Both the position numbers and the translations under genes were made by a program. This document shows positions 2,295 through 39,221 of a stretch of DNA of 64,000 nucleotides, one piece after another. This stretch comes from Nitrospira sp. ND1 (GTDB lineage: Bacteria; Nitrospirota; Nitrospiria; Nitrospirales; Nitrospiraceae), in NCBI RefSeq assembly GCF_900170025.1, contig NZ_FWEX01000006.1:2509236-2573235 (forward strand), read 5' to 3'. Numbering within the stretch: the first letter of the stretch is position 1; each line of letters starts with the position of its first letter. The notes under the pieces are model-generated. The model had not been told where the DNA came from. It was given only the letters and a program-made list of their open reading frames with translations, and searched no databases.

Positions 2295-3188
2295 ATGGGA
2301 CGGGCCGGCCGGATCGTACGCGGAATCATGGTGCTTGGCAGTGTGCTGCTGCTCGCTTCCTGCGGCGATTCCTTCAATGACGCCTATTGTGAAGCCAACA
2401 ACCACCGCAATCAGCAAACCGTCGAACACCTCACCAACGTCCTCGAGCAAAAGCGCAATCAGCCCGGACTCTATCTCGCGCGTGCCCGCTGCCACTACTT
2501 TCTCGGCGCCTATGCGCAAGCCCTGCAGGACGCGTCGGAGGTCATTCGCCGTCTGCCCAATAAAGCCGATGCCTATCTCCTTCGCGCCAAGGCAGGGAAG
2601 ATGCTCGGCCAGATTCCACAGGCGCTGCAAGACTACAGCGCTGCCATTAAATTCCAGCCGACCGCCGAAGCCCATTATGGCCGTGGATTGACCTACGTGC
2701 GGGAATATCAGGGGAAGGATCGCGAAGCCCTGGAGGATTTCACCGCCGCCATTCGCCTCGATCCCAAACACGTCGGCGCCCACGCATTCCGCGCTCAAAT
2801 CTACAGCCGCCACGAACAGTTTCAGCACGCACTTGCGGATTCGGAGCAGGTGCTCAAGCTCGATCCCACCACCCCCAATGCCTACTGCAATGTCGGCTTT
2901 GCGCACTATGCGCTGGGGCATGACGCCGAGGGCCGCAAGTTTCTCACCACCTGCTACCAGAAAGATGCCGATCCCCAGACGCGCGGCTATTACGAAACCG
3001 AAGTGAACAAGGTGCTGTATGCGCGGAAACCGAAGCGGAATTCCGGCGGGAGCTACGTTGCCGAAGGGCGGGAGGTGACGCCCTACGACCGGGAAATGGA
3101 ACGGCAGCACAATGTGTACGAGAGTTTGCGGAATTCAGGCTTCAATGATCGGGCCGAGGCTTGCCGGACGGATGGGTCGAAATGCTAG
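2295..3188 (+). CDS. TPR-repeat lipoprotein
   Basis: The 297-residue protein begins with a lipoprotein signal whose lipobox is LLLASC, giving a lipidated cysteine at residue 23. The mature part consists of tandem tetratricopeptide repeats (for example YLLRAKAGKMLGQIPQALQD and HAFRAQIYSRHEQFQHALAD), which form a scaffold for protein-protein contacts at the outer or cytoplasmic membrane. The last 70 residues are polar and lack repeats. A GGAGG site precedes the ATG. The partner is unknown. A hairpin repeat begins four bases after the stop and may terminate its transcript. Confidence 0.85.
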   Translation: MGRAGRIVRGIMVLGSVLLLASCGDSFNDAYCEANNHRNQQTVEHLTNVLEQKRNQPGLYLARARCHYFLGAYAQALQDASEVIRRLPNKADAYLLRAKAGKMLGQIPQALQDYSAAIKFQPTAEAHYGRGLTYVREYQGKDREALEDFTAAIRLDPKHVGAHAFRAQIYSRHEQFQHALADSEQVLKLDPTTPNAYCNVGFAHYALGHDAEGRKFLTTCYQKDADPQTRGYYETEVNKVLYARKPKRNSGGSYVAEGREVTPYDREMERQHNVYESLRNSGFNDRAEACRTDGSKC

Positions 3189-3192
3189 GAGA

Positions 3193-3287
3193 GGGGCGGC
3201 CTGAGTAAGCCCCCTTGCTCGCGCAACGCGCGGCCTGAGAAGGCCCTCGTTGGACGACGCGCAGTGGGGGCTCACTCAGGCCGCCCC
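3193..3287. repeat. Family A hairpin repeat, copy 1
   Basis: Two 22-base arms (3193-3214 and 3266-3287) are complementary at 21 of 22 positions and enclose a 51-base core. The core carries GCTCGCGCAACGCGCGGCCT and CCTCGTTGGACG, with an inner GGCCT/AGGCC stem. The same core recurs at 21910-21961 and 39148-39198, while the arms differ in sequence but remain complementary. It lies directly after the TPR lipoprotein gene, so it may serve as a terminator or 3'-end stabiliser. Confidence 0.85.
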
Positions 3288-3863
3288 TTGAGGGAGTGAG
3301 GGGGAAGTGGAAGGAGCATTAGACACGGCCGGCTCACCGTCTCGCCGGCGTGCGCAGACGTGACGCTCCTTATTCGTCGCGTCGTGCACCTCGCAGACCG
3401 CGCACAATACACGGAATCCTTACCCACGCGTGGAGGTAAAGCCACCTCACGTTTTTGTTCTCCGCGGTTCGACTTATCCTGACTCAAGGCGATCTTGTTG
3501 TCATTTCCCTCCGTACCGATTTTTCTCCGCCAAGCATTCATATCAATCCCTCCGCTACACGGCAATCATGCGTGTTGACCTATTACGAACAGAGTGCTAG
3601 ATGGAAACTGCGTCTCACGTGGGTCGCCCTAAAAATGCACGTATTTATGGTTAGGAAAGTTTTGACAACATGAGTGAGCACGGGTATTCTCCCTGCCTGA
3701 ATGTGAGCCATGTACGATTTTGTCAGCCTGATTCGCGCATGCATCAAAGTTTTTGAATGTGAATTCAATCTCGGTATCATTCCAGCTGCACATGGTGGAT
3801 TGAGGAGTTGCTCGAAGGCGAAATTTATACTACTCGTCTATGTTCAATTGAGGAGGCAGCCCC
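3288..3863. other. Intergenic region and left edge of AT-rich island
   Basis: No convincing gene is present. Composition changes from GC-rich to AT-rich at about 3.45-3.6 kb, which I take as the left edge of the island. A TATACT hexamer at 3826-3831 could be the -10 box of the operon that follows; no well-spaced -35 box is evident. No tRNA or direct-repeat attachment site was recognised. Confidence 0.4.
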
Positions 3864-4721
3864 ATGGACTTGAATAGTAATCAAGAGGCCGTTGTAGGTC
3901 GGTCGTTCTGCAATCCTGTCCCCATGGACATTGTGCAGTCTTGGCTCAAGGGCGAATACCTTGTGGGGCAATCAGAGGCTGCCGGGTATGACTATATTGG
4001 CTGGTCGCTAATGGTGAGAGGTCATTATGGCTATGTTGTTACTAGTGATCCGACAACCAATGAACTGAAGGAAGAAATTGTAAGTCGGTTTGAGCAGGGT
4101 TTTATGGTGAAACAGGGCACGAAGAAGCTGGCCATTAGTCATGGAGGAATTGCCTTCATTGATATTCAGGATGGGGAGCTTCATTACCAGGGTGTTCGCC
4201 TGTTCAGCAACTGCGTAATGTACAACAAATCATCAGAAGCTGATGCCCCCTTGTTTTGGAAGTCCATGTTTTCAAAGCTAACGAGAATAAATAAGGATGG
4301 CGATCCCCATTTGTATTTCGGCCAGGTCTTATACGAGCCACAAGCAGATGAAGCCTATAGGACAGTGATCGAGGCACTCGCGAAAAAATTTGAACCAGGA
4401 AACGCGAAAGATTGCTTGGTCCATGGATTCTTAACGCAGCATCGCGCATTTGAACCAGTTTGCTCGTCTGCCGTCTCCGAGGATCAGATGCTTAAGTTTC
4501 GCGAGTCCGCTAGCAAATATCTCTCAGAAGAATATGAGGAGAATTTAACGGTCGTCGTAAGTGGCGCAAAAGCCGAAGATGCAGACGATGTCAGCGGACT
4601 AGTCCACATCAAGCTGGAGAAGTGGATGTTGCAGAATCTGGAGGGGGAGCTTCAGACGGTCACGCTCAAGGACGACTGGCTTCCTAAAAACAAGGGCGAG
4701 ATATGGTGGTTCCCCCTGTGA
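3864..4721 (+). CDS. Unknown protein, first gene of island operon
   Basis: I do not recognise this 285-residue soluble protein. It has no signal peptide or membrane segment. The N-terminal half is rich in aromatic residues and glycine and looks like a beta-rich domain (YDYIGWSLMVRGHYGYVV, then HGGIAFIDIQDGELHYQGV). The C-terminal third is acidic and helical and ends in KNKGEIWWFPL. The start follows a GAGGAGG ribosome site at 3850-3856. It is first in a co-oriented set of four genes and is AT-richer than the rest of the window, implying horizontal acquisition. By position it could be the sensor or adaptor of the AAA+ protein encoded 47 bases downstream, but that is inference. Confidence 0.75.
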   Translation: MDLNSNQEAVVGRSFCNPVPMDIVQSWLKGEYLVGQSEAAGYDYIGWSLMVRGHYGYVVTSDPTTNELKEEIVSRFEQGFMVKQGTKKLAISHGGIAFIDIQDGELHYQGVRLFSNCVMYNKSSEADAPLFWKSMFSKLTRINKDGDPHLYFGQVLYEPQADEAYRTVIEALAKKFEPGNAKDCLVHGFLTQHRAFEPVCSSAVSEDQMLKFRESASKYLSEEYEENLTVVVSGAKAEDADDVSGLVHIKLEKWMLQNLEGELQTVTLKDDWLPKNKGEIWWFPL

Positions 4722-4768
4722 ATCCCCGTCGATGAAGAGGGATGCATTAGGCCTGGAGGGACAGTAGC

Positions 4769-6205
4769 ATGACCATGACCTTTGACTATCTGAAGAGCCT
4801 ACATGAACTACCGCTGCATGACACGAAAACATTACAGTGTGCTCTTCCTCCAAAAATATATAGCCCCGCTCTTGCTGATGTTGCGTCCTGTCATCCTGTT
4901 TATAGCAGCCAATTAAAGGGTGCAAAATCCCTGCTTCGAAGCTATTTCGATGACAAAATAAGAGGCCAGTCGCCGCTCAATTGCCTCTTGCTTGGGCCTC
5001 CTGGAGCAGGAAAAACATTTATTGCCGAGGCGATAGGAAAGTCTCATGACCGCAACCAAGTTATCGAGGAGATTAATTTGTCCCTTGATAGCGATGCTCA
5101 AGTCATTTTGGCAAAGATTGGTGCAGCGAGGAAACGTCCCCGGGTGGTTTTTCTTGATGAGTTTGATGTCACCGTCGATGGATCTTCTGTCGTGCGTTAT
5201 CTGTTGGATCCGATTACAAGGAAGGAGCATGCGAAGACGGTCTTTATTTTCTCTGGCAGCTATCTGAAGAATCGAAGCATTCTTAATACTCTCTGTCGCA
5301 ATACAGCTGACTTCGATCTTTTGCGGTTTCTCTTCGATGTGTTCATGTCGGAGAGTAATCGGGATGCCGCAACATTCGTTAGGCAGCTGCATCAAATGTC
5401 AGCCCTATACCGTGAATCTAAGCAAGCCCTATCACCGAATAGTGATCTCCTAAACTACCTCAGACAATTACATAAGATTCGTGACTTTCTCTCCCGGATT
5501 AATGGGTTTGTGATCCAAATCCCAGATATTGCATCACCGCTGGCCATTACTGATCCCATGCTCGCTCTGCGGCCTCATGAGAAAGGTAAACGATCGGAGG
5601 TTTTTCTCTGGAAGGGCAAGGTGCTGCCAGAGGATGTTCGCGAGTTTGCGGTAAAGCTGGGCAACAACGCATGCAAGTATCAGAGCCCAATCGAACCGCT
5701 TCTAGATTACAAGAATATGATTCTCACCGAACGTCTGGGCCTCGTGCTCAGCCTTCTCCCCAAGCCAGAGTGGAAGGATAGTGAAAAGGGAAGAGACGAA
5801 CCAGAGTTGCCCCGCTTCATTAGTCATAGACTGCTGAATTACCTTGTGATGGTGCCGGTTGAACACAATGTTCGGAGTTTAAAGTTTATGATCGAACATT
5901 GCTTGGAGTTTAATAGGGTCGAGAAAAACTCCATTGTGAAGGTAGGGCAGGAAGAGGAGCAGTTCCCAAATGGAGAAGAGTTTCTTTTACGCAAAGACCT
6001 TCGACTCTTGTTCGAGATGCACGTGAACAAGGAGCCGTTCTTCGACTCTCCCACAGGCCTTTGGAGGCTATTAGGTGCAACCCAGAATCATGACATATTT
6101 AAAAGAACCGGAGCGGAGCTTCTCCGAGTTCCGTACGACAAAGAGTGGAAAGACGAAATGAAGAGGCGTACGGCAAGAAATGGGAATAAGTCAAACGTCC
6201 CGTAA
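4769..6205 (+). CDS. AAA+ ATPase of island operon
   Basis: This 478-residue protein has a clear P-loop ATPase core near the N-terminus: Walker A GPPGAGKT at residues 76-83, Walker B VVFLDE at 126-131 and a sensor-1-like stretch FIFSGS at 159-164. About 300 further residues are largely helical and match no family I know. The spacing of the motifs is AAA+-like, so it probably works as an oligomeric NTP-driven switch or remodeller. A GGAGGG site precedes the ATG. It lies between the unknown 285-residue protein and a two-helix membrane protein; an ATPase sensor controlling a membrane effector is a recurring design in antiphage systems, but no known system is recognised. Confidence 0.8.
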   Translation: MTMTFDYLKSLHELPLHDTKTLQCALPPKIYSPALADVASCHPVYSSQLKGAKSLLRSYFDDKIRGQSPLNCLLLGPPGAGKTFIAEAIGKSHDRNQVIEEINLSLDSDAQVILAKIGAARKRPRVVFLDEFDVTVDGSSVVRYLLDPITRKEHAKTVFIFSGSYLKNRSILNTLCRNTADFDLLRFLFDVFMSESNRDAATFVRQLHQMSALYRESKQALSPNSDLLNYLRQLHKIRDFLSRINGFVIQIPDIASPLAITDPMLALRPHEKGKRSEVFLWKGKVLPEDVREFAVKLGNNACKYQSPIEPLLDYKNMILTERLGLVLSLLPKPEWKDSEKGRDEPELPRFISHRLLNYLVMVPVEHNVRSLKFMIEHCLEFNRVEKNSIVKVGQEEEQFPNGEEFLLRKDLRLLFEMHVNKEPFFDSPTGLWRLLGATQNHDIFKRTGAELLRVPYDKEWKDEMKRRTARNGNKSNVP

Positions 6206-6240
6206 GTGCCTGAGTAGGCGTTTTGTAAAGGGAATTTTCT

Positions 6241-6720
6241 ATGGCCAACAGGGACCTGATCTGGAAGTCTCTATTGAGCGCGGAGCTGAATGCTGGCTAT
6301 TACAAGGAGTCGAGTGACAGATATGTTCTTCAGGATAACCTGGCGCGATATTTTGGGATAGTCTTAGGTGTGAGTACTTTTGCGAGCCTCCCGTTTTGGG
6401 CTTTGGCCCCATTCGTGTGGCAGGGGCTACTTGTCGTCAACTCGTTATTCTCGCTAGCGACGTATGTGTTTAAAGTAAGCGAGAAGGCAAGAACAGCAGG
6501 AGAGCTCTCAACTAAATGGAAGATTCTTTCGCAACACTACGATCTGTTATGGGCTCAGATCGACGAGGAGGGGTGTCCGACCGATTACATGAATAAGTAC
6601 GAAAACCTGCTGAGAGAAGAGGACGAGTTGATCAAGGTAGGCTATGCGTTGCCAAACGACGATGCACTCAGAGCTAAATATACTGACGCAGTTTGGTCTT
6701 TGCGAGGTATTAGAAATTAG
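6241..6720 (+). CDS. Two-TM SLATT-like membrane protein
   Basis: The 159-residue protein has an amphipathic N-terminus, two adjacent membrane helices (about residues 40-58 and 61-79, around FGIVLGVSTFASLPFW and FVWQGLLVVNSLFSLATYVF) and a cytoplasmic helical tail with STKWKILSQHYDLLWAQID. This layout matches SLATT-domain proteins, small membrane proteins predicted to be pore-forming effectors in nucleotide-second-messenger and other conflict systems. Family membership is judged by eye only. It lies 35 bases after the AAA+ gene in the same AT-rich operon, and no CD-NTase or nucleotide cyclase is nearby. Confidence 0.65.
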   Translation: MANRDLIWKSLLSAELNAGYYKESSDRYVLQDNLARYFGIVLGVSTFASLPFWALAPFVWQGLLVVNSLFSLATYVFKVSEKARTAGELSTKWKILSQHYDLLWAQIDEEGCPTDYMNKYENLLREEDELIKVGYALPNDDALRAKYTDAVWSLRGIRN

Positions 6721-6737
6721 ATTATTGGAGGTGCTAA

Positions 6738-6899
6738 GTGGGGAAGGATTTTGTTGATAAGATTGAGCCGACTAGGCCATGGCCTCCGGCACCATTGCCT
6801 GGAGAAACTCAAAAAAAACAGGACAAGGGGCAGCGAAATGATCAGGATAAAACGCCGATCGGTGATCGGCAAGCTCAGCGATTGCCAATTAAGTCGTGA
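6738..6899 (+). CDS. 53-residue charged, proline-rich small protein
   Basis: A GTG-started frame of 53 codons follows a GGAGG ribosome site (6727-6731) seven bases upstream and begins 17 bases after the SLATT-like gene. The product is hydrophilic: a proline-rich segment (TRPWPPAPLPGET) followed by a lysine, glutamine and aspartate-rich stretch, with no membrane helix. The spacing and ribosome site suggest it is the last gene of the island operon. It could be an inhibitor or linker of the system, or chance; the function is unknown. Confidence 0.5.
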   Translation: MGKDFVDKIEPTRPWPPAPLPGETQKKQDKGQRNDQDKTPIGDRQAQRLPIKS

Positions 6900-7384
6900 A
6901 ACTGATTTGTGGTTTTTCCCCCGCTGAATCAACGTGCAACGCCAGGTCAGGCAGCGGCGGTTAGTCTCACTGCGCTGCACTATAGCGTGCGACGTCATTG
7001 CAATTGGTGCTGTGCCGCATTCTACGGCTCTTCCGAATGCCAAACGTGGCGTACATGAAATGTCTTACCTTTTGGAGCCTCCTGTTTATTATGCCAAATC
7101 TCCCCGAGCCCATTGATGCCGGCCACTTTCCAATAGAGTGTTTTCTTGGGCTGGTATCGTTCGGCTTGTGGCTTCGCCCCGAGGCCTGCATGTTTCATGA
7201 CACTATTTTAAGAAAGGAGCAGAGGCCTCCATCGAGGAGACTCTTCGGCTCAGTACCGCTGTCTATGCTGCTGCACTATTCGAAATAATCCGAATCAGCG
7301 TATCCGGCTTCGGCGTCAAAGACAGTCCCAATTGACAGCCCTCAGTGGATATCGGTACTCTCAAAAAAAGTGGGAGGGTTTGTG
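6900..7384. other. Right edge of AT-rich island, no firm gene
   Basis: This stretch holds the return from AT-rich to GC-rich sequence. One frame (7037-7288, 83 codons, hydrophobic, beginning MPNVAYMKCLTFWS) has no good ribosome site and resembles nothing I know, so it is not called. The promoter of the gene at 7385 must lie at the right end; GGAGG at 7373-7377 is its ribosome site. Confidence 0.4.
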
Positions 7385-7681
7385 ATGGCACTTCTTCTCG
7401 CGTTCTACCTCATCTTTTCCACAGTCATTCCCGCATCAGCGCTAGAGGATTCTCCGGCCACCGCCGCCTTGGTCATCAAGGCCGATGTCTTGTATTGGGA
7501 AGAGGGCGAACTGGTCGTGAAGGAATTCTCCGGTCACGAAGAACGCCTGAAAGTGACGCCTGAGACCAAAATCGAGGGCGTGGTGGGCGGTCGCTTGAAG
7601 ACCGGCGACAAGATCGTGGCACAGATTACCGACGACCGTAAGGCGCTCTCCATCAAGTTGCAGGTTCCGGACGGCCGGTAG
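7385..7681 (+). CDS. Small secreted protein
   Basis: The 98-residue product has a signal peptide (MALLLAFYLIFSTVIPASA) and a mature domain of about 80 residues rich in beta strands and charged residues, ending KALSIKLQVPDGR. The pattern IEGVVGGRLKTGDKIVAQIT suggests a small OB-like or SH3-like barrel that may bind a ligand in the periplasm; no family is recognised. The ATG at 7385 is chosen over an upstream GTG at 7370 because it follows GGAGG at the right distance and gives a clean signal peptide. The gene converges with the toxin gene at 7801. Confidence 0.7.
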   Translation: MALLLAFYLIFSTVIPASALEDSPATAALVIKADVLYWEEGELVVKEFSGHEERLKVTPETKIEGVVGGRLKTGDKIVAQITDDRKALSIKLQVPDGR

Positions 7682-7800: not shown

Positions 7801-8079
7801 TTACTTGAACATGTCGTAGTCGTAAATCGAGTGGTGATGGCCGATGTACCGGAGCTGCACCTGGTTCGGGCCGAGGAATTTAAAGATGATGCGATAGGAT
7901 CGATCGACACGAAAGCTCCACACTTCGTGATGTTTGGGGCGGAGCTTCTCTGTATGGAGCGATGGGTAAAACGGATTCTCCCGGAAGAGATCCGTTTTGG
8001 AAGCGGCCTTTCGTTGAATTGGTTTGGGAAGCTTGGAGAAAAGGGCGTCGAAGGTTGCGGTAGTGGAAAGCTCGAGCAT
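7801..8079 (-). CDS. RelE/ParE-type toxin
   Basis: The 92-residue protein has the RelE/ParE core: an N-terminal helical hairpin (FDALFSKLPKPIQRKA), then strands with the family signature HEVWSFRVDRSYRIIFKF and the C-terminal IGHHHSIYDY. Toxins of this fold are mostly ribosome-dependent mRNA endonucleases or gyrase poisons; the arginines in SFRVDRSYR and the terminal His/Tyr group fit an mRNase. The gene starts seven bases after the stop of its antitoxin gene on the same strand, forming a two-gene type II module. It looks intact. Confidence 0.85.
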   Translation of the reverse strand: MLELSTTATFDALFSKLPKPIQRKAASKTDLFRENPFYPSLHTEKLRPKHHEVWSFRVDRSYRIIFKFLGPNQVQLRYIGHHHSIYDYDMFK

Positions 8080-8086
8080 GATCGAA

Positions 8087-8284
8087 CTACGCGATCAACT
8101 CTCGTAGCGACTTTCGTTTCGTGATTCGCCCCGCTTTGTGGTCCTTTTCAGAGGTGTCCAGCGCATCGAGGAATTCTCGGCGATAGAGGCCGATCGAATC
8201 ACAAAAAGACTCAAAATTTTCTTTTGAGATTTTGAACTGAAAACTGTCTTTGGTTCGTTTCACCACTTTTGCTGCAAGCGCCAT
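8087..8284 (-). CDS. Antitoxin of RelE/ParE-type pair
   Basis: This 65-residue, strongly charged protein directly precedes the toxin gene. Its N-terminal half (KVVKRTKDSFQFKISKENFE) and basic helical C-terminus (GRITKRKSLRELIA) are like those of small antitoxins that wrap the toxin, though I cannot assign a DNA-binding fold. The call rests on gene order and size. The promoter should lie in the 70 bases between it and the divergent side of the secreted protein gene at 8357. Confidence 0.75.
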   Translation of the reverse strand: MALAAKVVKRTKDSFQFKISKENFESFCDSIGLYRREFLDALDTSEKDHKAGRITKRKSLRELIA

Positions 8285-10648: not shown

Positions 10649-11641
10649 ATGCACCTCGATCCTATCGCGCGCCGGTCCAGGAAGGTGTTTCTCGTCTGCG
10701 TGGTCGCGCTCCTGTTCCCGGCGGTGCGGGCAAACGACGGCTTGGCCCAGGAACCGCCCGGCTCCACCACGCTCCAGCTCACGCTAGACATTGGACAATC
10801 CGCGCTGAGTCTCGGAGAGCCGGTCTATGCCACCGTCCGCCTCGTCAATGTGGGGACGATGCCGGTGGAGGTGTTCAAACTGCTCGACCCGCAAACCGGC
10901 GCGATCCAGATTGAAGTGTCGAGCTCGAATAGGCCACGGTTCGTGTTCCTGCCGTTGTTTTACGCGGATGCCGTGCACAACAGGATCGCTCTCGCTCCGG
11001 GCGAGGCAGTCGTGGCGATCTTTCCTGTCTTTTATGGCGCGCTGGGATGGACGTTCGATCGACCTGGGACCTATCGCGTGACGGCCGAATACCGTCCTCA
11101 GGGCGCGTCTCAACAGGATCGGATACGCTCACACGCGGTCAGCGTGACGGTGACCGACGAGCACGGCGCCGGGGCCTCCTTACTGACCGGCTCGTCCGCG
11201 GGCGAGGAAGCGGCAAAATTTCTGTTATGGCAGCGGGGCGACCAATTGCAGGCGGGACAGGCGCTGTTGACCGGGCTGCTGACCCAACATCCCGAGTCGC
11301 CGCTGGCCGATTATGCGCTGCTGGCGTTCGGGAGAAATCTGAGCCGGAGTTTCCGCAATTATGCCGTTGGGAAGATCCGTGAAGCGGACTGCGGGTCGGC
11401 GTTGACCTATTTTCAGAGAATCCGATCAGACCGGCTGCCGGTCTTCTTGCAGATCCAACAACGCCTGGATGAAGCCCGCTGTTTTATCAAGTTGTCCCAG
11501 CCGGCTAAGGCGCTCGATTCGATGGAGCGGGCCGAACAGTTACGCGACGGTCGTCCTGAATACACGCTCCTCTTTCAACAAGCGATACGGTTGGAACCGA
11601 CGCTGGGCCTTCACTCTGCCATCAACACACCGCACCGCTAA
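10649..11641 (+). CDS. Secreted protein with beta-sandwich and helical repeats
   Basis: The 330-residue product begins with a signal peptide (FLVCVVALLFPAVRA). Residues 40-150 look like an immunoglobulin-like fold (LSLGEPVYATVRLVNVG, then PGTYRVTAEYRP). The second half is helical with TPR-like pairs (SALTYFQRIRSDR, KALDSMERAEQL). It may be a periplasmic scaffold. It lies 16 bases after the metzincin lipoprotein gene, suggesting a shared role, perhaps as inhibitor or substrate-presenting partner; that is inference. No family name can be given. Confidence 0.7.
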   Translation: MHLDPIARRSRKVFLVCVVALLFPAVRANDGLAQEPPGSTTLQLTLDIGQSALSLGEPVYATVRLVNVGTMPVEVFKLLDPQTGAIQIEVSSSNRPRFVFLPLFYADAVHNRIALAPGEAVVAIFPVFYGALGWTFDRPGTYRVTAEYRPQGASQQDRIRSHAVSVTVTDEHGAGASLLTGSSAGEEAAKFLLWQRGDQLQAGQALLTGLLTQHPESPLADYALLAFGRNLSRSFRNYAVGKIREADCGSALTYFQRIRSDRLPVFLQIQQRLDEARCFIKLSQPAKALDSMERAEQLRDGRPEYTLLFQQAIRLEPTLGLHSAINTPHR

Positions 11642-11685
11642 ATCTGCTCTGTGAACCTCGATGACGGTCTTTTCCCTGTCGACCA

Positions 11686-13230
11686 TTATGCGCTCGCTCC
11701 GGTTCTCGTCGCTTCGACGAATTGTTCGGTGGAATCGTCCAAGGCCCGGCCTTTGCGACCCTGGGCACGATGGATGTACAGCAGGCCGGCGCTGATGTCT
11801 TGTTTCTGTGCAGGCGGGAGCGGCATCTGGTACGCGACGGCCCGGGCATGATCGGCCAGTTGAAGCTTCGGATCGTACACGCGATTGAACTTCCACAGCA
11901 TCTTCACGAAATTTGTCTGGCCGCGCAGCAGATGTCCGGCCGCGATACGCGCCGTCGATTTTAAGGCGTTCCATCCCAGGTGCTTCTGATTCAGGATCTG
12001 CTGCGTCTTGACCAATTCCGCATAAAATTCCGGCAGCGGTAAGGTGGTCGGAAGGACGGCATGTTGGATGTCGTAGAGGCGGTAATCCCGAGTCGTCACA
12101 TGCCGGGCTTCGGTATGCCACGATTCGGTTCCGGGATAGGGCGTGTTCACGCTGATGTTCACGATCTCGGGGATCTCCAGGCACCACTGCCGGACGATCT
12201 CGAAGCGCCGTCGATCCCAAGCGGGATCGGCGATCAGGTTGATGGCGACCGTTATACCGAGCGAGCGGGCGAATTCGAGCGCTTCGAGGTTCTTGCTGAT
12301 CGTGGTGCGTTTGCGATGGTGCGCCAGCCCTTCTTCATCCATCGCCTCGATGCCGATGAACATGTAGGCGAGGCCCAGCCGCTTCCACAGCTGAAACACC
12401 TCTTTGTTGCGGAGTAGCACGTCGCCTCTCGTCTCCAGGTAATACTGCTTCTTGATTCCTCGTCGAGACACGGCCTCTCCGATCGCCATGCCCTGTTTGG
12501 CTTGAATAAAGGCGACATCATCGACAATGAATACGCCGGGCTCTCGAATGGACGCCAGATCGTCCACGATCTTGTCGGGGCTGGCAGCGCGATAACTCCG
12601 TCCGTAAAAGGTCCAGGCGCTGCAGAAGGAGCAGTCCCAGGGACACCCCCTGGTGAATTCGATGGAGGCGCAGGGATCGAGCACGCCGATGAAATATTTG
12701 CGCCGGTGCCGCAGCAGGTCGCGCGCCGGATGAACCTCGTTCAGGCTGGTGATCATACGGGCGGGCGGCCCTTCAGCATAGCGCGTGACGGTGCCGGGGA
12801 CCTCTGCGAGAGCCGACCGGTCTTCTTCGATGGCCGTTAACAGCGGCCCGATGGCGCTCTCGCCTTCGCCCTTGAGGACACAGTCGATCGCGCCGTCCGC
12901 ATGCTCAAGCATGGCTTGGGCCACGAACGATGCACTGTGCCCGCCGACGAAGACCGCACTGCGCGGGAGTTGTTGTTTCGTGAGCCTCGCGAGATCGACG
13001 ATTTCGGGCACGTTGGCCAGATAGTTACAGGAAAAGCCGATCGCATCGGGACGACGCTCCTGCAGCAGCGTGACGAACGACGCGTGCGACTCCACTTGCA
13101 GATCGATGAGCGTGACGTCGTGCCCGGCCCGGCGCGCGGCGGCTGCGACGAGCTCAAGCCCCAGCGGTTCCAGGCGCAGATAAATTTTCGTATACATCAA
13201 TGGGCTTGGATGGACGAGCAGCACGTTCAT
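11686..13230 (-). CDS. hpnR: B12-binding radical SAM enzyme, likely hopanoid C-3 methylase
   Basis: The 514-residue protein has an N-terminal cobalamin-binding domain (about residues 1-150, beginning MNVLLVHPSPLMYTKIYLRL) and a radical SAM core with the CxxxCxxC cluster motif CPWDCSFC (C196, C200, C203). The C-terminal 120 residues are helical. Length, order and the YTKIYLRLEPLGLELVAAA start resemble HpnR, which methylates hopanoids at C-3; Nitrospira and methanotrophs carry it. The assignment is from memory of the family. No other hopanoid gene is nearby. GGGAGG lies just before the ATG. Confidence 0.75.
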   Translation of the reverse strand: MNVLLVHPSPLMYTKIYLRLEPLGLELVAAAARRAGHDVTLIDLQVESHASFVTLLQERRPDAIGFSCNYLANVPEIVDLARLTKQQLPRSAVFVGGHSASFVAQAMLEHADGAIDCVLKGEGESAIGPLLTAIEEDRSALAEVPGTVTRYAEGPPARMITSLNEVHPARDLLRHRRKYFIGVLDPCASIEFTRGCPWDCSFCSAWTFYGRSYRAASPDKIVDDLASIREPGVFIVDDVAFIQAKQGMAIGEAVSRRGIKKQYYLETRGDVLLRNKEVFQLWKRLGLAYMFIGIEAMDEEGLAHHRKRTTISKNLEALEFARSLGITVAINLIADPAWDRRRFEIVRQWCLEIPEIVNISVNTPYPGTESWHTEARHVTTRDYRLYDIQHAVLPTTLPLPEFYAELVKTQQILNQKHLGWNALKSTARIAAGHLLRGQTNFVKMLWKFNRVYDPKLQLADHARAVAYQMPLPPAQKQDISAGLLYIHRAQGRKGRALDDSTEQFVEATRTGASA

Positions 13231-21523: not shown

Positions 21524-21883
21524 ATGGGCCCGACGAAAGCAATCGTTCAAGGACAGTCGCTCCACGAAGCCGTGAGCGGCAAACTGATACGGGACGGATT
21601 TACGAGCCAGCAGGCGATGGAAGATTACGTGCGGCAGCACTATATCGTCATGCCGGTACGCGACAATGCCGGACAGCCCTGGCAGTTGGACGGGAAACCG
21701 GTCTACTGTCTGCACGGTGTGCAATACGAAACGGTCGATGACCAGAAGGTGCATCTTTCCCGATGCCCGGATTGCGGCGGCATGGGGATCAGGGCGGATG
21801 AACTCACGGTCGATTCCGACTGTATTCGCTGCACCGCCTGTGGCCATGAGTTTGATGCGCGGTTGGAGATGATGGAGACATAG
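21524..21883 (+). CDS. Zinc-ribbon protein
   Basis: The 119-residue protein ends in a four-cysteine ribbon, CPDCGGMG and later CIRCTACGHEFD, expected to bind one zinc ion. The N-terminal 80 residues (LHEAVSGKLIRDGFTSQQAM, then YIVMPVRDNAGQPW) form a small mixed domain I do not recognise. It may bind nucleic acid or protein. An AGGAGGCGG site precedes the ATG. It is flanked by a family B hairpin upstream and a family A hairpin downstream, so it is probably a separate transcription unit. Confidence 0.7.
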   Translation: MGPTKAIVQGQSLHEAVSGKLIRDGFTSQQAMEDYVRQHYIVMPVRDNAGQPWQLDGKPVYCLHGVQYETVDDQKVHLSRCPDCGGMGIRADELTVDSDCIRCTACGHEFDARLEMMET

Positions 21884-21887
21884 GAGA

Positions 21888-21983
21888 GGGGCCTGCCTGC
21901 TCAGTGTCTTTTGCTCGCGCAACGCGCGGCCTTAGAAGGCCCTCGTTGGACGCGCGCAGTGAGACACCGAGCAGGCAGGCCCC
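21888..21983. repeat. Family A hairpin repeat, copy 2
   Basis: The 22-base arms (21888-21909 and 21962-21983) pair at 21 of 22 positions; their sequence, GGGGCCTGCCTGCTC and onward, is unrelated to the arms of copy 1 past the first bases. The enclosed core (21910-21961) is almost identical to that of copies 1 and 3. It begins four bases after the zinc-ribbon stop. Confidence 0.85.
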
Positions 21984-39124: not shown

Positions 39125-39221
39125 GGGGCGTGCAGTCGGGCGCTCCTATGCTCGCGCAACGCGCGGCCTCAGAAGGCCCTCGTTGGACGCGCGCACTCAG
39201 GAGCACCCGACTGCACGCCCT
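39125..39221. repeat. Family A hairpin repeat, copy 3
   Basis: Arms of 23 bases (39125-39147 and 39199-39221) pair with 21 Watson-Crick pairs, one G-T wobble and one A-C mismatch. The enclosed core (39148-39198) matches copies 1 and 2. It lies upstream of prfC and 70 bases left of the IS1182-type element, in a zone with further broken copies. Confidence 0.85.

Follow-up and report, generated by a model that had tools for sequence, protein, structure and literature searches.

A candidate anti-phage cassette in Nitrospira sp. ND1 with a SLATT-like membrane protein and a proline-rich micro-protein

Four plus-strand genes at positions 3864 to 6899 of a 64,000-nucleotide stretch of Nitrospira sp. 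ND1 (the window; contig NZ_FWEX01000006.1, positions 2,509,236 to 2,573,235) are here read as a horizontally acquired anti-phage cassette of the abortive-infection type, placed in a defence hotspot and composed of two units, genes 1 and 2 (unit A) and genes 3 and 4 (unit B). We consider this full reading about an even call; that the cassette has some role in defence is likely. Sequence comparison indicates that genes 3 and 4, a SLATT-like membrane protein and a proline-containing micro-protein, are a conserved two-gene module present in at least two phyla and in phages. The features of the operon are as follows.

3864..4721, plus strand: gene 1, 285 amino acids, ATG start; soluble protein, proposed sensor, no family match
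4769..6205, plus strand: gene 2, 478 amino acids, ATG start; AAA+ ATPase (Pfam AAA, 9e-8)
6241..6720, plus strand: gene 3, 159 amino acids, ATG start; SLATT-like protein with two predicted membrane segments, proposed effector
6738..6899, plus strand: gene 4, 53 amino acids, GTG start preceded by GGAGG; charged micro-protein that contains proline and is proposed to partner gene 3
4994..5017, plus strand: Walker A motif GPPGAGKT, gene 2 residues 76-83, by sequence reading
5144..5167, plus strand: Walker B motif VVFLDEFD, gene 2 residues 126-133, by sequence reading
6780..6800, plus strand: WPPAPLP segment of gene 4, with the W-P-x-P motif common to loci L248, L256 and L257
3662..3690, plus strand: Sigma70-like promoter match TTGACA-17-TATTCT upstream of the operon, a consensus match only

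Direct reading of the window gave four intact, co-oriented open reading frames with intergenic gaps of 47, 35 and 17 bases, just as the original prediction had described them. There is no plus-strand terminator match inside the operon, and the frequency of promoter- and terminator-type matches in the region is not above that in shuffled sequence. Genes 1, 3 and 4 have no match in Pfam, PADLOC or NCBIfam. AlphaFold2 models made without an alignment reached predicted local distance difference test (pLDDT) scores of 36 and 54, the latter for gene 3, whose low-confidence model is all helical.

Hydropathy places two hydrophobic segments in gene 3, at residues 40-56 and 63-79, as is expected of a SLATT protein with its two transmembrane segments. 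Direct searches of plasmids, phages and viral contigs with gene 3 returned no match. A joint query of genes 1 and 3 against the phylum of the L124 genome (titled Acidobacteriaceae) returned three relatives of gene 3, L248 (1e-9), L249 and L250, and a profile of these three then retrieved relatives in the phylum of Nitrospira sp. ND1 itself (L256 at 1e-33, L257 at 1e-28 and L258 at 7e-11), along with the viral contig L255. A wider profile added two copies in one further genome (L263 at 2e-26 and L264 at 1e-25), and close relatives were found on the further viral contigs L267, L268, L269 and L271; L267 is the same locus as L255, and L270 is a second contig identical to L269. When a profile was built from 12 relatives with the window's own gene 3 left out, it recovered that gene at E=3e-26 among 3388 frames. 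Scores below threshold link the relatives to SLATT_1 (0.0028 for L263, 0.0095 for L249), SLATT_4 (0.0032 for L258) and SLATT_5 (0.035 for L249), which makes "SLATT-like" a fair description, short of formal Pfam membership. The original prediction, which had likened gene 3 to a SLATT protein, is thus upheld at the level of the superfamily, and homology points to gene 3 as a SLATT-type membrane effector.

A proline-rich micro-gene of about 29-61 amino acids lies behind or overlaps the gene 3 relative in all 13 distinct loci (the window, L248, L249, L250, L256, L257, L258, L263, L264, L267, L268, L269 and L271), in several of them overlapping the stop codon of gene 3 by 4 bases. The usual feature of these small proteins is either W-P-x-P or a run of prolines ending in lysines, and a related WPP occurs in L249, L264, L267, L268 and L271. 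The window's gene 4 contains ...KIEPTRPWPPAPLPGE, to be compared with ...KVEAPNPWPDPPP in L256, ...RIDPIDSWPPPPPPNDKKKK in L257 and ...KVERERDWPDPE in L248. In the L249 protein MRTNDFNKTWPPLSRPL runs on into 15 prolines and KKK, and that of L267 has NWPPLPKPL with 10 prolines and SPKK. Those of L268 (...GWPPLPERLPPPPP...PPPPPPKK), L269 (...YPPIPKPLPPPP...KK) and L271 (...EWPPIQRPLPPPP...KKK) also end in lysines. Proline runs of 8, 4 and 10 without WPxP are seen in L250, L258 and L263, respectively, while the L264 frame reads WPPPATPPPP...KK and lacks an in-frame standard start codon. No such micro-gene was seen at L265 and L266, which hold more distant SLATT-like genes.

The proline codons are mixed (CCA 50, CCG 42, CCT 34, CCC 23), which points to selection acting at the protein level and away from a repeat in the DNA. 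Under a fixed rule, which was however set after the pattern had been seen, only 4 unrelated genes among 1045 gene proxies (about 0.4%) in the loci collected by then had such a micro-gene; the remaining 16 positives all belong to the gene 3 family, some of them in duplicate loci. The phage loci L268, L269 and L271 came after the rule, and all three agreed with it. Gene 4 is the weakest call in the operon by length, and the equivalent micro-genes behind gene 3 relatives elsewhere support it as a real gene, conserved by kind. The original prediction had rightly listed a small charged protein here but treated it as an extra, when it is the most telling part of the operon. We found no description of this gene pair in the literature, although coverage was incomplete and this is weak evidence of absence.

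The pair occurs in several settings. In L257 it lies behind a Gabija system on the same strand (GajA 2e-178, GajB 2e-249), and in L256 it is in an island with the type I restriction genes HsdM and HsdS and a PD-Lambda-2_B homologue, on the opposite strand. The L248 pair directly follows a gene for a 404-residue protein (4240-5451, minus strand) with no Pfam or PADLOC match, possibly an alternative trigger protein. At positions 114-4332 of L257, the Gabija genes are followed by a frame of 71 amino acids, the gene 3 relative and the micro-gene, all on one strand, which may be an extended Gabija locus.

The operon lies within a segment that seems to have been acquired recently, and the arrangement around it is as follows.

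2295..3188, plus strand: TPR lipoprotein, the left native flank, kept beside the slot within the genus
3189..3403, no strand: palindromic intergenic repeats at the slot's left edge, with more copies at 21881-21961, at 39149-39195 and in the slots of relatives
3404..7327, no strand: acquired segment inserted at a variable chromosomal slot, replaced or absent in 15 relatives and distinct in base composition; edges approximate
7370..7681, plus strand: small conserved protein with no family match, the right native flank, kept on the other side of the slot

Segment 3404-7327 has a guanine-plus-cytosine content of 0.481, the lowest among tiles of 3.9 kb in the window, the remainder of which stands at 0.602; this agrees with the AT-richer island between native genes that had been proposed. 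We searched for the TPR lipoprotein gene in 29 genomes of the genus, including that of Nitrospira sp. ND1, and compared the resulting loci. Both flanking genes are present in 15 relatives; the slot contents differ, and none has this segment, so the island is an acquired insertion. The slot is empty (about 200-470 bp) in five relatives (G208, G583, G585, G593 and G589). In G594, G224 and G055 it holds a restriction-modification pair, an Eco57I-type methylase with an XhoI-family endonuclease (in the G594 copy, which was scanned, Pfam XhoI 4e-72 and PADLOC MTase_II 6e-184), and in G127 a DUF4238 protein (1e-42; PADLOC DUF4238-Pers 2e-7). The G169 slot (L236 7957-11301, minus strand) has a DndB-like protein, an unrecognised protein of 300 residues and a D12-class adenine methylase, a set that is possibly a defence system. 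The slot of G586 encodes a protein of 120 residues, and that of G119 is partly masked. Restriction-modification or PADLOC/Dnd-type cargo is thus present in 5 of the 15 relatives, and with cargo of XhoI-type restriction-modification, DUF4238, DndB-like and D12 methylase genes, or nothing at all, the slot behaves as a defence hotspot. The site has been used repeatedly for defence cargo, though also for other cargo, and the defence setting that had been suggested for the operon holds in this sense. The palindromic elements at the slot edges, which relatives also have, could be a recombination substrate for cargo exchange. In G055 (L240, about 11290-12357), the TPR flanking gene has an in-frame stop and looks broken.

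Genes 1 and 2 gave no full-length relative in any of the searches made. Gene 1 had no relative in direct searches of 296 genomes of the same phylum, plasmids, phages and viral contigs, and it stays unrecognised as originally described; Protein Data Bank matches to Vps4 (0.025) and a proteasome alpha subunit (0.38) are weak and were judged to be chance. A query of genes 1 and 3 against the phylum of G298 gave no match, and when three genes were concatenated and queried against the phylum of G296 (titled Myxococcales), only AAA cores came back. Gene 2 is an AAA+ ATPase, as had been claimed from its Walker A and B motifs: residues 73-164 match Pfam AAA (PF00004) at E=9e-8, with 33 bits against a cut-off of 21.2. 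Searches of the 296 genomes of the phylum and of genome contigs with gene 2 found no full-length relative, only matches to the ATPase core. (An alignment of degenerate motifs with artificial rows served to steer the pattern scan for gene 2 and is not evidence.) Among the best core matches are AAA+ proteins with RyR domains, and one of these, in L169, is 51 bp from a gene that scores 2e-9 against Pfam SLATT_1. Behind the RyR-AAA-like ATPase genes of L117, L120, L127, L131, L158, L175, L184 and L185 lies a gene of about 180-220 amino acids with GVTGHR...EGADR motifs, which by eye reads like a SLOG protein.

The defence reading draws on the cargo of the slot in relatives, on the position of the pair after Gabija in L257 and in an island with type I restriction genes in L256, and on the nearest AAA+ cores being those of RyR-AAA proteins, one of them 51 bp from a SLATT_1 gene. 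We infer, at a further remove, that gene 3 forms pores, that the micro-protein gates it, that gene 1 is a sensor and that a chain of triggering connects them. Unit B would be a mobile effector module, in which gene 3 would oligomerise in the inner membrane and permeabilise it once released. The co-translated micro-protein may bind the cytoplasmic helices of gene 3 through its W-P-x-P or poly-proline segment, and this binding would either keep gene 3 silent or couple it to a trigger encoded upstream. That trigger would here be unit A, with gene 1 sensing infection and the gene 2 ATPase spending ATP to remodel the effector or the effector's partner.

Known systems offer partial parallels. SLATT effectors (PF18181 SLATT_1, PF18186 SLATT_4 and PF18160 SLATT_5, and that of DRT10/UG17) are like gene 3 in size, in having a helical C-terminal part after two close membrane segments, and in their defence contexts. 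These proteins are predicted pore-formers, and DRT10 defence is lost when its SLATT gene is deleted (PMC12632851); a reverse transcriptase/SLATT pair makes sbcB essential (PMC9122126), and SLATTs recur across other conflict systems (PMC7159879). Unlike SLATT systems such as DRT10/UG17, however, gene 3 has a proline-rich micro-protein as partner, and near the window operon we found no CD-NTase (as had already been remarked), no SLOG-type gene, no nucleotide-signal enzyme and no reverse transcriptase. Any link of the gene 3 family to conflict systems would run through the defence hotspot slot and the Gabija neighbour in L257. The RyR-AAA+/SLOG/SLATT conflict operons (L169, L117 and others) have, among the genes found, the AAA+ core most similar to gene 2, and in L169 the AAA+ gene adjoins a SLATT gene, as gene 2 adjoins the SLATT-like gene 3, but gene 2 has no RyR domain, the operon has no SLOG-type gene, and the similarity extends over only about 100 residues. 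Among PADLOC profiles, gene 2 matches best those of IetA, the AAA+ protein paired with the protease IetS in IetAS, at 9e-6 and in the region around the P-loop. We rejected an assignment to IetA or IetAS, as only about 65 residues match, the NCBIfam equivalog scores 18 against a cut-off of 510, and the operon has no gene for a subtilisin-like protease. The gene 3-4 pair follows Gabija (GajA/GajB) in L257 but lies outside the defined Gabija system, and the window operon, which has no Gabija genes, does not belong to that system.

Several observations weigh against the four-gene cassette as we have drawn it. The four genes, which the original prediction had grouped as one candidate operon, were not seen together elsewhere; the conserved unit is genes 3 and 4, and these look solitary in L249, L250, L263, L264 and the phage contigs, so that an AAA+ trigger may be unnecessary. 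With no full-length relatives of genes 1 and 2, their tie to genes 3 and 4, and with it the earlier grouping into sensor, switch and effector, comes from the operon structure of one genome. The gene 3 family falls below the Pfam cut-offs for SLATT, gene 3 itself having no Pfam match. Slot cargo that is not defence-like is also found, namely a low-molecular-weight-phosphatase-like gene in G113 (L232) and a lipoprotein-like gene in G121 and G588 (L228/L238). The main rival is that genes 3 and 4 are an autonomous pair, resembling a toxin-antitoxin or superinfection-exclusion pair, which happens to stand behind unrelated genes, the micro-protein being a plain antidote to a membrane toxin with two transmembrane segments. 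The solitary loci favour it, as do the 4-base overlaps, which are typical of tightly co-translated partners, and the failure to meet genes 1 and 2 beside the pair elsewhere; the gene order and overlap fit the layout of toxin-antitoxin pairs. In the window, however, all four genes are co-oriented, with the short gaps given above and no plus-strand terminator match between them, and the same-strand position behind Gabija in L257 suggests an association with larger systems. We regard the autonomous pair as less likely than not.

The non-defence cargo in relatives would also suit a cassette that is ordinary accessory DNA and serves some purpose outside immunity, such as in stress or in the envelope, its defence setting being coincidental. 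This is improbable in our estimation: defence-type genes occupy the slot in the 5 of 15 relatives noted above, relatives of gene 3 turn up repeatedly, on phage contigs, behind Gabija and in the vicinity of type I restriction genes, and all four frames of the window operon are intact. It is also conceivable that the pair is a domesticated phage lysis pair, either a holin or an Rz/Rz1-type spanin. Rz1 is tiny and proline-rich and overlaps its partner gene, and Rz/Rz1 spanins likewise combine a membrane protein with such a partner, an arrangement matched by the pair on several viral contigs. None of the 12 micro-proteins examined, however, has a cysteine, as a lipobox would need, or a hydrophobic signal peptide, and the larger protein of the pair combines two membrane segments, where Rz has a single one, with a long helical C-terminal part. 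No endolysin gene was recognised beside the pair, and half of the loci do not resemble phage DNA. The lack of a lipobox cysteine disfavours spanin or holin identity, and we think a lysis origin very improbable.

Two further small loci were noticed. At 7801-8284 on the minus strand, a HigB/ParE-like toxin gene and a small partner gene upstream of it occupy a second small variable slot; this content is present in L235 and skipped in most other relatives. At 286-1052 on the plus strand, a MazE-type antitoxin gene and a PIN-domain gene form a VapBC-like pair.

Returning to the anti-phage cassette and its unit B, a broader proposal, which we hold tentatively and below an even chance, is that the pair is a widely distributed and undescribed immune module of two genes, with a disordered proline-rich micro-protein gating a SLATT-like effector, and that it is traded among phages and bacterial defence islands, where it stands next to Gabija, type I restriction genes or an AAA+ sensor. 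More speculatively, synthesis of the micro-proteins with 8-15 consecutive prolines may need elongation factor P, which could give the module a built-in sensor of translation failure, although not all members have such runs. SLATT proteins are common among predicted effectors, and little is known of how they are controlled; a dedicated partner of gene 3, conserved in several phyla and in phages, would make that control directly testable. A gene of about 29-61 codons, often overlapping the effector gene, is easily missed in annotation, and the pair would suggest that other membrane effectors of defence islands may have overlooked micro-protein regulators.

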